Positions 4,104 through 9,601 of a stretch of 10,716 nucleotides of DNA are shown here, in pieces (the stretch's first letter is position 1; each line of letters starts with the position of its first letter). The stretch lies in assembly GCA_029262935.1 (NCBI GenBank), contig JAJCYK010000495.1, positions 1-10,716 of the forward strand. The letters run 5' to 3'. Below the pieces are notes generated by a model, which saw nothing but the letters and a program-made list of their open reading frames with translations, was not told the DNA's origin and ran no database searches. The DNA comes from Cytophagales bacterium (lineage in GTDB: Bacteria; Bacteroidota; Bacteroidia; Cytophagales; Cyclobacteriaceae). The position numbers and the translations under genes are program-made.

Positions 4104-4631
4104 TTAACTCATAAAAGCTAGTGGAAAATCCACCATTGCATGAAGCATAACGGCCGCCAGGATGGAACCATCTTTTTCTCGAATGAAGCCTAGCGTCAAT
4201 CCAAAAATAAATGTCCAAAGGGCCCAAGGCCAGGTAGACGGAACGGAAACCAAAGCATGTGACAAGCCAAACACAACCGATGTAAGTAATAACCCCCATC
4301 CAAAGGAGACCTCTCCCAGCTTAAATGATTTGCCAAAATACCGGTTAACGGAAGACTGGAAATACCCCCTAAAAAATAGCTCTTCGCCTAGTGCCACAAT
4401 AAAGAGATAATACAACAGTTTCGAAGCAAAAGGAAAAAAATCATAACTCAAATGAGCTAATAGCAGGGTTATTATGCTGAGTGACACCACCAAGAGGATA
4501 TTCCGGTTTGGCACATGAATGGCACTCCTTGACGGTAGTTTTTCCGTGGTTCTTGGAATAAAATACAAAACCAATAAAAAGGCACCGCTCAAGGCTATTG
4601 AACCAGGCCAATCTTCAAAATTCCACCCCAC
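4104..4631 (-). CDS. CPBP family intramembrane metalloprotease, C-terminal part (frameshifted)
   Basis: This open frame holds the catalytic part of a CPBP/Abi (Rce1-like) membrane protease. The three motifs are intact: EELFFR (Glu83, Glu84, Arg88, counted from the GTG at 4631), FGLSHAL with His125, and HAMVD with His164 and Asp168. Several hydrophobic helices surround them. The GTG at 4631 is probably not a true start: the frame is open further upstream and reads as sensible protein (DFGIYFPK, then a helix containing ITFLLIALVG) back to the nine-A run at 4739-4747. There it would join the frame of the N-terminal piece if one A were added or two removed. Bacterial CPBP proteins cleave membrane substrates or take part in bacteriocin immunity or maturation; the target is unknown. 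Whether the cell makes an active protein depends on slippage, phase switching, or whether the shift is a sequencing error. Confidence 0.8.
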   Translation of the reverse strand: MGWNFEDWPGSIALSGAFLLVLYFIPRTTEKLPSRSAIHVPNRNILLVVSLSIITLLLAHLSYDFFPFASKLLYYLFIVALGEELFFRGYFQSSVNRYFGKSFKLGEVSFGWGLLLTSVVFGLSHALVSVPSTWPWALWTFIFGLTLGFIREKDGSILAAVMLHAMVDFPLAFMS

Positions 4632-4684
4632 AAGTGCAATTAATAAAAAAGTGATGCAAGCTGGTCCTGCTAGCGAAAAGGCTT

Positions 4685-4978
4685 TTAATGCGAGTTTGAA
4701 TGAATCAGTCTCTTTTGGAAAGTAGATCCCGAAATCGCTTTTTTTTTATACAAAATATGGATAAGCACCAAAGGAAGTAAAATAGTAAAGATCACTTTTG
4801 CCAGGTACCTTACCACCACCTCATCCTTTGGGGTAAAGTCATAGGGAATATGCTTCACATTCCAAAACGCCCATAGCATCCCCATCCACACCAATATGGG
4901 AAGAACAAGATTCTTTACTACCAGCTTTAATTGATATGGATCTGCACTAGTATCATTCCTCTTTATGTTAAAAATCAT
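4685..4978 (-). CDS. CPBP protease, N-terminal part (frameshifted)
   Basis: A 97-residue reading frame beginning MIFNIKRNDTSADPYQLK, with two hydrophobic helices (about residues 24-40 and 60-77). The last genuine residues appear to be HILYKKK; after the nine-A run the frame continues for only 17 unrelated residues (AISGSTFQKR...) and stops. In the frame offset by one, the sequence after the run reads SDFGIYFPK and continues without a stop into the CPBP catalytic part. Fused, the two give about 290 residues, close to the usual CPBP length of 250-300. I therefore read this as the 5' half of one gene rather than an independent small protein. The start lies 131 nt after the stop of the M56/amidase gene on the same strand. 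Confidence 0.7.
   Translation of the reverse strand: MIFNIKRNDTSADPYQLKLVVKNLVLPILVWMGMLWAFWNVKHIPYDFTPKDEVVVRYLAKVIFTILLPLVLIHILYKKKAISGSTFQKRLIHSNSH
4739..4747 (-). other. A9 homopolymer at the CPBP frameshift
   Basis: Nine consecutive A on the coding (minus) strand at the exact point where the CPBP gene changes frame. Runs of this length are prone to polymerase slippage, replication slippage and sequencing miscounts. A10 or A7 would give one uninterrupted reading frame; A9 gives a stop 18 codons later. Confidence 0.85.
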
Positions 4979-5109: not shown

Positions 5110-6576
5110 TCAATTTTTGCTAAAATCTACAATAGTGTTTACAATTTGTTCTGCTAGAAGTATTTGGTTTTCCTCTTTGTTAAGAAATTTCAAGTCCTCG
5201 ACGTTAGATAAAAACCCTAAGTTTAGCAATACCGCTGGGCAGCCCGAATCTCTTAATACGAAAAAGTTGCCTTTCTTTATTAAGGTTTCAGTGTTTGCTC
5301 CAATCCTTAGGTTTTTGGCAAATTTGGAACTATAGCCACTTGATATTTGGCTTTGAGTATTTTCATCAAAATAATATACTTCTAGCCCCCTTTGCAGCGG
5401 GTTTTCATGATTATTAATATGCAAGGAAACGAACAAATCCGCTTTATGGACTTTAGCCAAATTCGCTCGATCTGCCAAGCCTACCTGCTTATCCAAGCTT
5501 CTTGTATAAATAAACTCGATGGATGTCTCCTTGCTTACCTCCTTAATGGCATTCGCAATTGATAAAACGATGTCTTTCTCCAAATATTGATGATTTAGGT
5601 CTGTGGCACCTGGGTCCTCTCCTCCATGAGCGGCATCAATTATAACCGTGAATTTAGAGGAATCAGCATCAACATTCCCTCTAAGCCCTGTATCCGTAAA
5701 TGAAAATGCAATTAATGCAACTGCCAGGAACGAAAGGGAAACCAATAGTTTTTGTCCAAAAATAAGTTTTGAAGATTTTTTACTTGTCATCATAATAATT
5801 CTGTTTTTAATTAAAGAATAATTAAACCCACTAACAGGAAGCGGTTGTTTAGTTTGATTCAAAAATTTGAGCAATTTGCCACTATAAGATTCACATGAAG
5901 ATCCATGATTTAGCACATGATTATCCGCATAATACTCATGATTGGCTTTGACTAAGTAGCGATAGCACCACAGCAGAGGGTTGAACCAATAAAAGATTAG
6001 TACAAGCTCTATAAATAAGATATCCAAAGTATGAAGATGTCTGGCATGAGCCCCTTCATGACTTACTATGTCAGCATCTATTCGTTGGTTTATATAGTCA
6101 TCTTTATTTAAAAATATATCTTTCCCAAAACAGAATGGGTTGGTTTTTTCAGATATCAGAACTAATCGTTGCGTGCCCCAGCTATGTACTTCTGATTTAG
6201 CTCTTAGCGTTAGCAAAAGCCGAATATTGTTAAAGTATCGGACAGCCATAATCAAGACACTCATCAGATACATCATCTTAGCTAGGTTATACTCCAGTTG
6301 ATAATCATTCAGCTGGACATTCTCCACAGCTAAAGCCAAATTCGACTGTTTTAAGTTGATTATTCCATCATTTACAAAATTAAGGTGGCTATTATCTGGA
6401 TGGGCCATCGATTCTGGAATCGATAAGTTTAGCACCGGTGTGATTAAAGAAAATACCACTGCAAAAAGCAGATAAAACCTGTTGAACAGTAACCATTTAT
6501 CTCTTCTGAAAAGAAAATAATAACTCACCAATAGAACAAATAGGTAAAGATTTGATTTCAAGATATATACCAGCAT
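5110..6576 (-). CDS. BlaR1-like M56 peptidase fused to N-acetylmuramoyl-L-alanine amidase (Amidase_3) domain
   Basis: A 488-residue membrane sensor-protease. Hydrophobic helices lie at about 4-23, 33-52, 100-115, 184-204 and 276-294. Between the third and fourth is the M56 zinc-peptidase core with HEGAH (HExxH: His173, Glu174, His177) and the downstream HEYYAD (Glu214, Asp218), as in BlaR1/MecR1. After the last helix, where BlaR1 has its penicillin-binding sensor, there is instead a periplasmic Amidase_3 domain (about 308-485). Its zinc ligands are in place: His317 in IDAAHGGEDPGA, Glu333 in LEKD, His386 in SLHIN. The second, catalytic Glu, expected in 'VLVExGFLSN', is Asn452 here (VLLNLGFLSN, codon AAC at 5223-5221), so hydrolytic activity is doubtful. 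The ATG overlaps the stop of the BlaI-like gene by one base (TAATG), indicating translational coupling. Probable role: bind a cell-wall ligand outside, then cleave the repressor inside. That role is inferred; the domain calls are firm. Confidence 0.88.
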   Translation of the reverse strand: MLVYILKSNLYLFVLLVSYYFLFRRDKWLLFNRFYLLFAVVFSLITPVLNLSIPESMAHPDNSHLNFVNDGIINLKQSNLALAVENVQLNDYQLEYNLAKMMYLMSVLIMAVRYFNNIRLLLTLRAKSEVHSWGTQRLVLISEKTNPFCFGKDIFLNKDDYINQRIDADIVSHEGAHARHLHTLDILFIELVLIFYWFNPLLWCYRYLVKANHEYYADNHVLNHGSSCESYSGKLLKFLNQTKQPLPVSGFNYSLIKNRIIMMTSKKSSKLIFGQKLLVSLSFLAVALIAFSFTDTGLRGNVDADSSKFTVIIDAAHGGEDPGATDLNHQYLEKDIVLSIANAIKEVSKETSIEFIYTRSLDKQVGLADRANLAKVHKADLFVSLHINNHENPLQRGLEVYYFDENTQSQISSGYSSKFAKNLRIGANTETLIKKGNFFVLRDSGCPAVLLNLGFLSNVEDLKFLNKEENQILLAEQIVNTIVDFSKN

Positions 6577-6950
6577 TATTTCTTTTTTTCCTTGATTTGT
6601 TCATCAATAAGTTTCTTGAGCTCTTCAAGTTGCTCTATAGATAAGTCCGACTTCGAAGTAAAGTACGATGCAAATTGTGCGGTAGAGTTGTTGAAAAAAT
6701 TACTGATCATCTGATTCAAATGATGTTGAAAGTAGTCTGACTTTTTAATTTTTGGAAAATACTCTCTGACCTTACCCCTTTGTATGAAACCAATGTGACC
6801 TTTTTCCACCATACGGGTGAGAATAGTGGCAATTGTAGTATAAGCAGGTTTAGGATGAGGGAACTCGTCTACAAGATCCTTCATATACCCTTTCTCAATT
6901 TTCCACAAATGTTTGATCAATTGTTCCTCGGTTTTTGTGAAATTTTGCAT
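6576..6950 (-). CDS. BlaI/MecI/CopY family transcriptional repressor
   Basis: A 124-residue winged-helix repressor of the BlaI (Penicillinase_R) family. Residues 1-70 form the DNA-binding domain, with the typical opening 'FTKTEEQLIKHLWKIEKG' and recognition-helix region PAYTTIATILTRMVEKG (35-51), then the wing (GKVREYFP). Residues 71-120 form the helical dimerisation part, ending in a Lys/Glu-rich tail. In the characterised BlaI and MecI systems this half is cut during induction; a comparable site here cannot be pinpointed. The gene is first in an operon with the M56/amidase gene, which overlaps its stop codon. A palindrome over its own promoter suggests autorepression. No beta-lactamase or penicillin-binding protein gene is nearby. 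The ATG at 6950 fits the family N-terminus; there is no recognisable Shine-Dalgarno site. Confidence 0.92.
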   Translation of the reverse strand: MQNFTKTEEQLIKHLWKIEKGYMKDLVDEFPHPKPAYTTIATILTRMVEKGHIGFIQRGKVREYFPKIKKSDYFQHHLNQMISNFFNNSTAQFASYFTSKSDLSIEQLEELKKLIDEQIKEKKK

Positions 6951-6970: not shown

Positions 6971-6986
6971 TACTACAAATGTAGTA
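6971..6986. promoter_or_regulatory. BlaI-type operator palindrome
   Basis: TACTACAAATGTAGTA is a perfect inverted repeat with 7-nt arms and a 2-nt centre. It contains the TACA-N2-TGTA core known from BlaI/MecI operators and lies 20 nt before the ATG of the BlaI-like gene. Its position over the predicted -7 element fits classical repression by blocking RNA polymerase. Confidence 0.75.
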
Positions 6987-7723: not shown

Positions 7724-9601
7724 ATGAAAAACTTTTTCGGTTTTAACTTTACACATTTTAAAGGTGATCTGTTCGGGGGTATTACCGCGGGAATAGTCGC
7801 CTTACCCTTAGCCCTGGCTTTCGGGTTACAATCAGGGCTTGGTGCTGCGGCCGGACTTTATGGCGCCATATTTATCAGTTTTTTTGCAGCCTTGTTCGGG
7901 GGCACAAATACTCAAATTTCAGGCCCTACAGCCCCTATGACAGCTATAAGTATGGTGGTTATAGCGGGTATTCTAGCGGTTAACGAAGGGGACATGAGTA
8001 GAGCCTTACCCGCTATATTAATGGTCTTTATTTTGGCAGGCCTTATGCAAATAGGATTGGGCGCATTGAAAGTTGGTAGCTATATCCGATACATCCCTTA
8101 CCCTGTAGTATCGGGGTTTATGACAGGGATTGGAGTGATCATAATTATCACTCAGATACTACCCATAATAGGCTATTATCCAAAAGAAGATCTTGATTAT
8201 GTAAACCGTTTCAAACCTCAAGCAGAAGAGCTGCTTATGGAAAGGATCTTACGTGAGGAAGCAGCTGAAGAGATTTTGGTTTTAGAAGATTTTAAGGAAA
8301 CTGTACGACGAGCAGGCAATATTACCACCCATGAGATTAAACAAGAGGCGGAGGTACTAGCTGCCAATGAATCGTCCGGGGTCATTGGAGCAATAAGCGT
8401 ATTTCCTAAAGCTTTTAAGAACATCAATAATATTGATCTGATTCTAGGTCTGGCCACTATTATAATCATTTATGGCTTTAAAAGGATTACCACGGTAGTG
8501 CCCAGCAACCTGGTCGCTTTGCTGGTGGTTTCGGGAGTTGCATTTGCCTTCATCCCAGAATATCGAGCTATTGGTGATATACCCAGTGGGTTTCCCGGAT
8601 TTAAACTGCAAATCATTAAAAGCCTGCAATGGGGGCAAATTTCTCCCTATATTTTTACGGCGGCAACTTTGGCGGCCCTGGGTGCCATTGATTCTTTGCT
8701 AACTTCCGTAGTGGCTGATAACATGACCAAAACAAAGCATGACCCCAACAAAGAGTTGGTAGGTCAAGGTATTGGAAATGCCATTGCCGGTTTCTTTGGA
8801 GGTATACCAGGTGCCGGAGCTACCATCCGTACCGTAGTTAACATTGAGGCTGGTGGAAAAACCAAACTTTCAGGCATGATCGCTGGGCTTTTAATGTTAG
8901 TTATCCTCCTGTCCTTAGGGCCCTTAGCTTCAAAAATACCAGCGGCAGTATTGGCTGGGATCTTAGTTACAGTGGGTATTGGAGTCATGGATTACAAAGG
9001 AATAAAACACCTGCGCATTCTAGCCCTTGACGAAGTACTGGTGATGATCATGGTATTGGGGCTTACAGTATTTGTAGGTTTAATTCAGGCAGTAGCAGCA
9101 GGTCTAATTTTGTCTTCTATTCTGTTTATGAAAAAGATCTCTGATGTAGTGGAACATCGGGCAAAGACCGCCCCCTTGAGAGATTTTTCACGAGAAATGC
9201 CCTGGACGGATGAAGGAAACATTATCGATCGTGTGGGTGATAAAGTCTTTATTAAGCATTTAGATGGGCCTTTGTTTTTTGGGTTTGCATCGCGATTCAA
9301 AGACATGTTGCGCGCATTGCCCGAAGTAGAAGTAGTGATTATTCGTATGGATAAAGTACCCTACATTGATCAGTCAGGATTATACGCCATGGAAGATGCC
9401 ATTATGGATCTTCAGTCCCAGGGAATAAAAGTGGTATTTACAGATGTACATGGCCAGCCATTGGATAACCTGGAGCGCTTTAACCTGATCCCCGGACTGG
9501 TGGAGCGAGAATTTTGTTTTGAAGATTTCACTGCCTGTTCAAATTGGTTGGAACACTATCTTAAAGACAAACACCCACATGTCACCACACTAGAGAATTA
9601 A
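7724..9601 (+). CDS. SulP family anion transporter with STAS domain (BicA-like)
   Basis: A complete 625-residue inner-membrane transporter: a transmembrane domain (about 14-470) and a cytoplasmic STAS domain (about 500-615). The N-terminal part reads GDLFGGITAGIVALPLALAFG and FFAALFGGTNTQISGPTAPMT, and the core reads IDSLLTSVVADNMT and GAGATIRTVVNIEAGG. From memory these are closer to the cyanobacterial sodium/bicarbonate symporter BicA than to classical sulfate permeases. The BicA sodium-site residues (Asp258, Thr262, Gly300, Thr302) align at constant spacing with Asp323, Thr327, Gly365 and Thr367. Bicarbonate uptake with sodium is thus the best guess; sulfate cannot be excluded. Residues about 155-217 form an extra, Glu-rich hydrophilic loop not present in BicA. 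The STAS domain keeps YIDQSG with Ser551, at the site phosphorylated in anti-sigma antagonists. No carbonic anhydrase gene is adjacent in the window. Confidence 0.92.
   Translation: MKNFFGFNFTHFKGDLFGGITAGIVALPLALAFGLQSGLGAAAGLYGAIFISFFAALFGGTNTQISGPTAPMTAISMVVIAGILAVNEGDMSRALPAILMVFILAGLMQIGLGALKVGSYIRYIPYPVVSGFMTGIGVIIIITQILPIIGYYPKEDLDYVNRFKPQAEELLMERILREEAAEEILVLEDFKETVRRAGNITTHEIKQEAEVLAANESSGVIGAISVFPKAFKNINNIDLILGLATIIIIYGFKRITTVVPSNLVALLVVSGVAFAFIPEYRAIGDIPSGFPGFKLQIIKSLQWGQISPYIFTAATLAALGAIDSLLTSVVADNMTKTKHDPNKELVGQGIGNAIAGFFGGIPGAGATIRTVVNIEAGGKTKLSGMIAGLLMLVILLSLGPLASKIPAAVLAGILVTVGIGVMDYKGIKHLRILALDEVLVMIMVLGLTVFVGLIQAVAAGLILSSILFMKKISDVVEHRAKTAPLRDFSREMPWTDEGNIIDRVGDKVFIKHLDGPLFFGFASRFKDMLRALPEVEVVIIRMDKVPYIDQSGLYAMEDAIMDLQSQGIKVVFTDVHGQPLDNLERFNLIPGLVEREFCFEDFTACSNWLEHYLKDKHPHVTTLEN

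Follow-up and report, generated by a model that had tools for sequence, protein, structure and literature searches.

A BlaR1-like membrane protease of a Cytophagales bacterium with an amidase-fold candidate sensor that has Asn at the catalytic Glu position

In the BlaR1 and MecR1 systems of Staphylococcus and Bacillus, a membrane-embedded M56 gluzincin carries a penicillin-binding (transpeptidase-like) sensor domain past its last membrane helix and is encoded beside a repressor of the BlaI family. Extracts from the literature on BlaR1 give its zinc ligands as H201, H205 and E242, plus D246, and describe an outer loop that competes for the sensor site. We analyzed a 10,716-nucleotide stretch of DNA from a Cytophagales bacterium (the whole stretch is referred to as the window) encoding a protein of similar layout: an HExxH...ExxxD protease site in register with that of BlaR1, an equal membrane fold in the predicted model, a sensor domain past the last membrane helix, and an adjoining BlaI-family gene. 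Unlike BlaR1 and MecR1, the window protein has an Amidase_3 domain as its sensor, and the palindrome of its system is extended to TACTACANNTGTAGTA. The protein scores 25.5 bits against the NCBIfam model blaR1_generic, for which the curated cut-off is 400. Since its sensor is not that of the BlaR1 family, the protein appears to work like BlaR1 but is not BlaR1.

The sensor-slot domain resembles the zinc amidases CwlV, CwlD, AmiC and Rv3717 in fold and in its three zinc ligands, but lacks their catalytic Glu and is fused behind a membrane protease. Some animal PGRPs are non-catalytic receptors. PGRPs use the muramyl peptide binding site of an amidase domain for recognition, as passages of one article state (PMC6448482), but they have the Type 2 amidase fold and belong to unrelated organisms and an unrelated relay. 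The essential role of mycobacterial CwlM, an amidase homologue of the AmiA/LytC type, is one of regulation, according to a portion of PMC4946905; CwlM is a cytoplasmic MurA activator that has lost its zinc-coordinating residues, whereas the window protein keeps the ligands and loses the Glu. Other Bacteroidota M56 fusions, with TonB, M23, TlpA-like or FGE-like tails, likewise join the protease to varied C-terminal domains, but the tail in the window is a wall-amidase domain.

Anatomy of the fusion gene and its catalytic site

The original prediction of an M56 membrane peptidase with an Amidase_3 domain in the sensor slot was borne out by Pfam and by alignment to solved amidases. The features of the gene are as follows.

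5110..6576, minus strand: M56-amidase fusion gene, 488 aa (open reading frame and Pfam)
5791..6471, minus strand: Peptidase_M56 match, residues 36-262 (Pfam, above curated cut-off)
6046-6060, minus strand: HEGAH, residues 173-177 of the M56 part (residues and codons read from the DNA)
5935-5937, minus strand: E214 of the M56 part (codon read from the DNA)
5923-5925, minus strand: D218 of the M56 part (codon read from the DNA)
5701..5769, minus strand: last transmembrane helix, residues 270-292 (helix in the model; hydrophobic peak 271-289)
5131..5646, minus strand: Amidase_3 domain, residues 311-482 (Pfam, above curated cut-off)
5626-5628, minus strand: zinc ligand H317 (alignment to solved amidases)
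5578-5580, minus strand: zinc ligand E333 (alignment to solved amidases)
5419-5421, minus strand: zinc ligand H386 (alignment to solved amidases)
5221..5223, minus strand: Asn452 (codon AAC), in the place of the catalytic Glu (alignment and codon read from the DNA)

The spacing of HEGAH, E214 and D218 equals that of H201/H205/E242 and D246 in BlaR1, and the zinc protease site HExxH...E is unchanged in all 45 dereplicated fusion rows described below. Helix 270-292 is the linker between the protease and the outer domain. In the predicted model, the M56 part adopts the BlaR1 membrane fold and the C-terminal domain an amidase fold (VIA-align). When aligned to 5emi, 4rn7 and CwlV (1jwq), H317, E333 and H386 fall on the zinc ligands of the family, while N452 stands opposite the Glu of VETG, IECG and LEVG in an ungapped motif. 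Asn452 therefore occupies the catalytic position, as had been proposed, and comparison with the three solved amidases revealed no alternative catalytic Glu inside the aligned motif of the window. Sequencing error or isolated mutation was rejected as the source of Asn452 because Asn is found at this column again in independent contigs and genomes. Profile, fold and His/Glu/His ligands place the domain in Amidase_3, with the catalytic Glu absent. As read from the sequence and the predicted model, the protein combines an intact M56 gluzincin site with an amidase fold and a complete zinc site in which Glu has changed to Asn.

Loss of the Glu need not destroy the fold, given that CwlD E199A abolished function without lowering CwlD levels in spores, unlike zinc-ligand mutants, as described in part of PMC8496864. 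We speculate, by analogy, that loop 56-88 of the window protein, where the confidence of the model is among its lowest, may play the part of the competing outer loop of BlaR1.

The catalytic position across the fusion family

The full set of 66 amidase rows, near-copies included, has the zinc ligands His/Glu/His in 66/66 and, at the catalytic column, Glu in 49, Asn in 11, Asp in 3, Ile in 2 and Gln in 1. Removal of 4 identical rows and of 17 rows of 685 residues, the latter one tight Glu-bearing group, left 45 dereplicated M56-amidase fusions, among which the near-identical Asn pair L090/P0009 remains. All 45 keep the zinc ligands whatever their catalytic residue, which is Glu in 31, Asn in 9, Asp in 2, Ile in 2 and Gln in 1. 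Asn or Gln is not conserved at this column across the fusions, and the window protein is not an isolated mutant among Glu-keeping homologues: the nearest kin do keep Glu, but Asn recurs in the family. The position toggles, and Asn is one of its states, not the rule of the fusion family.

A tree of the 45 fusions, built from 484 columns including the catalytic one and unpolarized as to the direction of change, implies no fewer than four Glu/non-Glu changes, with six changes of state in total; the program flagged the joining of L093 with L098/L099 as a possible long-branch effect. The smallest supported clade around the window protein (96/81) includes the Glu-bearing P0002, L092 and P0006, so that re-gain and repeated loss of Glu are indistinguishable. 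That these nearest relatives keep Glu indicates a position that toggles, and catalysis looks dispensable but not forbidden, as Glu is kept in most fusions including the nearest kin.

In the 31 Glu rows, 23 columns reach a conservation of 85% or more, and of these only the catalytic column is altered in all 14 non-Glu rows. D314, H317, G318, G319, G323, E333, R359, D362, R370, S384, H386, P447, N458 and A475 are constant in 14/14 non-Glu rows. Column 461, which is Asp in 31/31 Glu rows, is altered in 8/14 non-Glu rows, and column 388 in 5/14. The window itself keeps Asn388, and its Ala316 stands in place of a Gly present in 30/31 Glu rows. In L093, L098 and L099, which have Asp or Ile at the catalytic column, Glu replaces Asn388, two residues past the zinc His, and is a possible relocated acid.

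Selection was estimated within lineages lacking Glu as dN/dS by the Nei-Gojobori method, with synonymous sites near saturation in all pairs except L089/L090. Three pairs of three Asn species, not independent of one another, gave 0.059, 0.086 and 0.087 for the amidase against 0.162, 0.141 and 0.136 for the protease. One Ile pair, with identities of 89% in the amidase and 61% in the protease, gave 0.041 against 0.208. One Glu pair gave 0.104 against 0.148; the Glu pairs L095/L096 and L100/L101 were left out as more divergent and partly or wholly saturated (amidase 0.336 in one). In two non-Glu lineages, neither of them the window's own, the amidase domain is under strong purifying selection and more constrained than the protease. 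These values argue against a decaying pseudodomain in the two relatives' lineages, the window's lineage lying outside that comparison.

Standalone amidases served as a control. The 14 fusion genomes contain 24 amidase matches outside fusions, 16 of which were looked at. Those of the main type (L129-L141) keep Glu in 13/13; L156 has Glu within a diverged motif, and L155 gave no match in the motif search. The only other Amidase_3 match in the window's own genome, which is only 60% complete, is L002 (G000:C87; 64 bits). By eye it seems degenerate, with SIRLN at the second zinc His and TRSGF at the Glu motif.

Distribution, repressor partner and predicted operator

An amidase domain was found in 48, query included, among the best 120 of 228 homologues. 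Four candidates were scored per genome and groups were sampled, which makes the following genome counts lower bounds. In the family (390 genomes), 15 have a match at E 1e-78, of which 14 are full fusions from eight genera, the window's own included, and the 15th (L102) has a different tail. In the phylum (395 genomes), a full-length match at E 1e-60 occurs in 5, again counting the window's own, while in the order (390 genomes) the window's own genome has the sole full-length match among the matches listed. The M56-Amidase_3 fusion is rare, yet present in other orders of the class. M56 proteins are common in Bacteroidota; a match to the window protein, in some cases to its amidase part only, was detected in 58/59 relatives' genomes.

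In a tree of the protease halves, P0014, P0015 and P0050, whose tails are not Amidase_3, are nested in the fusion clade (support 99/99), suggesting that the C-terminal tail is a swappable input module; the M23-tailed P0115, on a long branch, joins another amidase clade. The tails of P0014, P0015, P0050 and L102 share the motif GWxxxGSxPxSYxxGT, seemingly another input domain, which Pfam did not recognize in P0014 or L102. The Pfam columns of the homologue list also show M56 proteases with TonB, M23, thioredoxin-like, FGE-sulfatase, TPR and Plug tails. M56 tails are a broad, little-explored sensor repertoire; the available passages of a review call the combination of M23 with M56 rare. Among the matches listed in open-licence PMC, no title or abstract describes an M56-Amidase_3 fusion. 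The names in public records do not reflect the sensor reading: the Glu-bearing P0017 and P0045 are entered as N-acetylmuramoyl-L-alanine amidase, and P0008, with Asn, as M56/M15 family metallopeptidase.

The repressor gene and its predicted sites are located as follows.

6576..6950, minus strand: BlaI/MecI-type repressor, 124 aa (Penicillinase_R E 1e-24; aligns to MecI 1okr)
6660-6662, minus strand: Phe97 of the predicted BlaI cleavage site Tyr96-Phe97 (sequence; P1' Phe)
6971..6986, no strand: predicted BlaI operator TACTACAAATGTAGTA, 20 bp before the blaI start codon (sequence and conservation)

The blaI and fusion genes overlap by one base, and the repressor scores 87.4 bits against Penicillinase_R (cut-off 22.6). 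In 13/13 family contexts besides the window, the fusion is immediately preceded by a BlaI gene on its own strand, in agreement with the proposed BlaI-like partner. Such a gene is also directly upstream of the fusion in L197-L199; the L200 stretch begins 100 bases before its fusion. At the predicted cleavage site, partner repressors have S-[FY]-F in 15/17.

The operator core of BlaI/MecI repressors is TACA-NN-TGTA. The exact core ACTACANNTGTAGT was found in 9/14 fusion genomes, in all 9 before the fusion operon. These account for 9 of the 12 exact sites over the 14 genomes; since a reversed-pattern control gave 19 sites, the number proves nothing and it is the location that is telling. In 14/14 contexts, window included, the operon is preceded by the palindrome ACTACA-NN-TGTAGT or a close variant of it. 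The relaxed pattern ACTA[CT]ANNT[AG]TAGT, selected after seeing five exceptions to the exact core, lies upstream of the operon in 14/14 and is absent elsewhere in the 3.9-15.4 kb stretches examined, with at most 0.04 occurrences expected per locus from simple base shuffles. L115 has two adjacent copies. The palindrome is also present in L197, a fusion with Glu that belongs to another order of the class, but was not found in L198 or L199, though both have blaI.

A regulon built on sites with one or two mismatches was rejected, because such sites are no more numerous than those of the reversed-pattern control; on inspection, the two one-mismatch sites in the window's own genome were both put down to chance. 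A second TACANNTGTA, at window positions 9439-9448 within a SulP-type transporter gene, was likewise judged a chance match. In one fusion genome, a different BlaI-M56 pair (L128, G434:C10) has a one-mismatch operator before its blaI, making cross-talk between such pairs possible.

Proposed relay, alternatives and possible targets

Because the cutting residue is lost while the rest of the domain is well preserved, the domain probably reads the state of the cell's own wall. We favor, with a probability of roughly 60%, a BlaR1/BlaI-type relay in which the penicillin-binding sensor is replaced by an amidase turned peptidoglycan receptor and cleavage of BlaI controls envelope-sugar modification. 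BlaI would keep the operon off at the palindrome until the zinc pocket binds a MurNAc-peptide ligand, either a wall strand or a released muropeptide, and retains it uncut. Movement of the amidase domain relative to the last membrane helix (270-292) would then open the cytosolic protease, which would cleave BlaI, probably at Tyr96-Phe97. Derepression of the operon, joined in some relatives by that of a YeiB/DUF418 acyltransferase-like gene and of a polysaccharide deacetylase gene, would alter envelope sugars. An amidase that also signals is possible, as P0002, L092 and P0006 keep Glu, and in such relatives the receptor may reset itself by cutting its own ligand. A second wall-derived input is also possible, since passages of PMC3305447 describe binding of a peptidoglycan dipeptide by BlaI/MecI of Gram-positives. 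The original prediction of direct sensing of peptidoglycan fragments or wall damage is partly supported, being right in anatomy and in the direction of the function, although Asn is not the rule among the fusions.

The retention of most conserved pocket residues despite loss of the catalytic one, in a fold shared with amidases acting on wall strands, would also suit a dead domain that anchors the protein to peptidoglycan and conveys a mechanical or positional signal (the wall detaching or thinning) in place of a soluble ligand. We consider this unlikely, as the swap of the C-terminal module for a tail without Amidase_3 in the same protease clade suggests distinct inputs. A slow or conditional amidase, in which zinc by itself or some other acid activates the water, would make the protein a wall hydrolase tethered to the membrane and controlling its own synthesis via BlaI; Glu in 31/45 fusions, Asp in two non-Glu rows and the Glu at position 388 in L093, L098 and L099 are in keeping with such an enzyme. 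Ile, however, is unable to act as a base and occupies the column in two species, and the window retains Asn388. Together with the loss of function of CwlD E199A (PMC8496864), this renders an active enzyme quite unlikely. That the zinc site or a protein partner is itself the signal, through periplasmic zinc sensing or activator binding, is improbable: the zinc ligands are constant in 45/45, stable zinc binding by CwlD requires its partner GerS and LytH binds ActH (7tj4), as excerpts on these proteins report, but R359, R370, S384 and N458 are kept in 14/14 non-Glu rows, beyond the needs of a bare zinc site, and no protein that looked zinc-related was seen among the ten from the window run through Pfam. 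Nor was a beta-lactamase or PBP recognized among these ten.

For the peptidoglycan-receptor relay, neighboring genes suggest possible targets. In L103-L105 (Asn), the operon begins with a DUF418/YeiB gene, which follows the palindrome and precedes blaI; in L112-L113 (Ile), a homologue immediately follows the fusion. Pfam on one stretch of each kind and phmmer on the others found no such gene in the remaining 9 fetched stretches, the window among them. According to portions of PMC12423673, DUF418/YeiB falls into the transmembrane acyltransferase superfamily, as do OafB, HGSNAT and the AT3 type, of which the peptidoglycan O-acetylase OatA is a member. The genomes of L112 and L113 each have just one further intergenic exact site, located where a PF01522 polysaccharide deacetylase gene starts; the two genes are orthologous, with the palindrome kept and the flanks different, and the enzyme is probably secreted. 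In L163, the mechanical reading frame begins before the palindrome and a Met follows the site. NCBIfam matches of the deacetylase, to spore, peptidoglycan and chitooligosaccharide deacetylases, are all far below cut-off. A third exact site in one of these genomes (L162), within a nagB-like coding region, was dropped as chance, and a NagX-like gene about 500 bp downstream in L114 (NCBIfam 173.6 against 480 bits) is a hint only. In the window, the deacetylase and YeiB links were not found, and the operon looks like blaI and the fusion only.

A broader reading, which we offer tentatively and regard as somewhat doubtful, is that of a bacterial counterpart of animal PGRPs: an amidase joined to a membrane protease, and disarmed time and again at a single residue, would read the acetylation or damage of the cell's own peptidoglycan and, via BlaI, switch genes for wall-sugar deacetylation and acylation. 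The fusion family suggests a ligand class for BlaR1-type relays outside beta-lactam resistance, its natural Glu/Asn/Gln/Asp/Ile series at one position provides a test case for the change from enzyme to receptor, and the predicted operator offers a defined read-out for the relay. If this suggestion is right, penicillin sensing would be one specialized input of a broader wall-sensing relay.

Two further observations concern flanking genes. At window positions 4104-4978 (minus strand), a CPBP/Rce1-like membrane protease apparently falls into two separate reading frames, of 97 and 175 aa, with a T run near 4740-4750 between them, through either an assembly error or breakage of the gene; no CPBP protease gene was recognized by eye in the gene listings of the 13 family contexts. 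In L109-L111, all of one genus, the fusion is followed by a similar set of same-strand genes encoding a GyrI-like protein (Pfam on L109 only), a lipoprotein-looking protein of 304-308 aa and a 349-aa protein.
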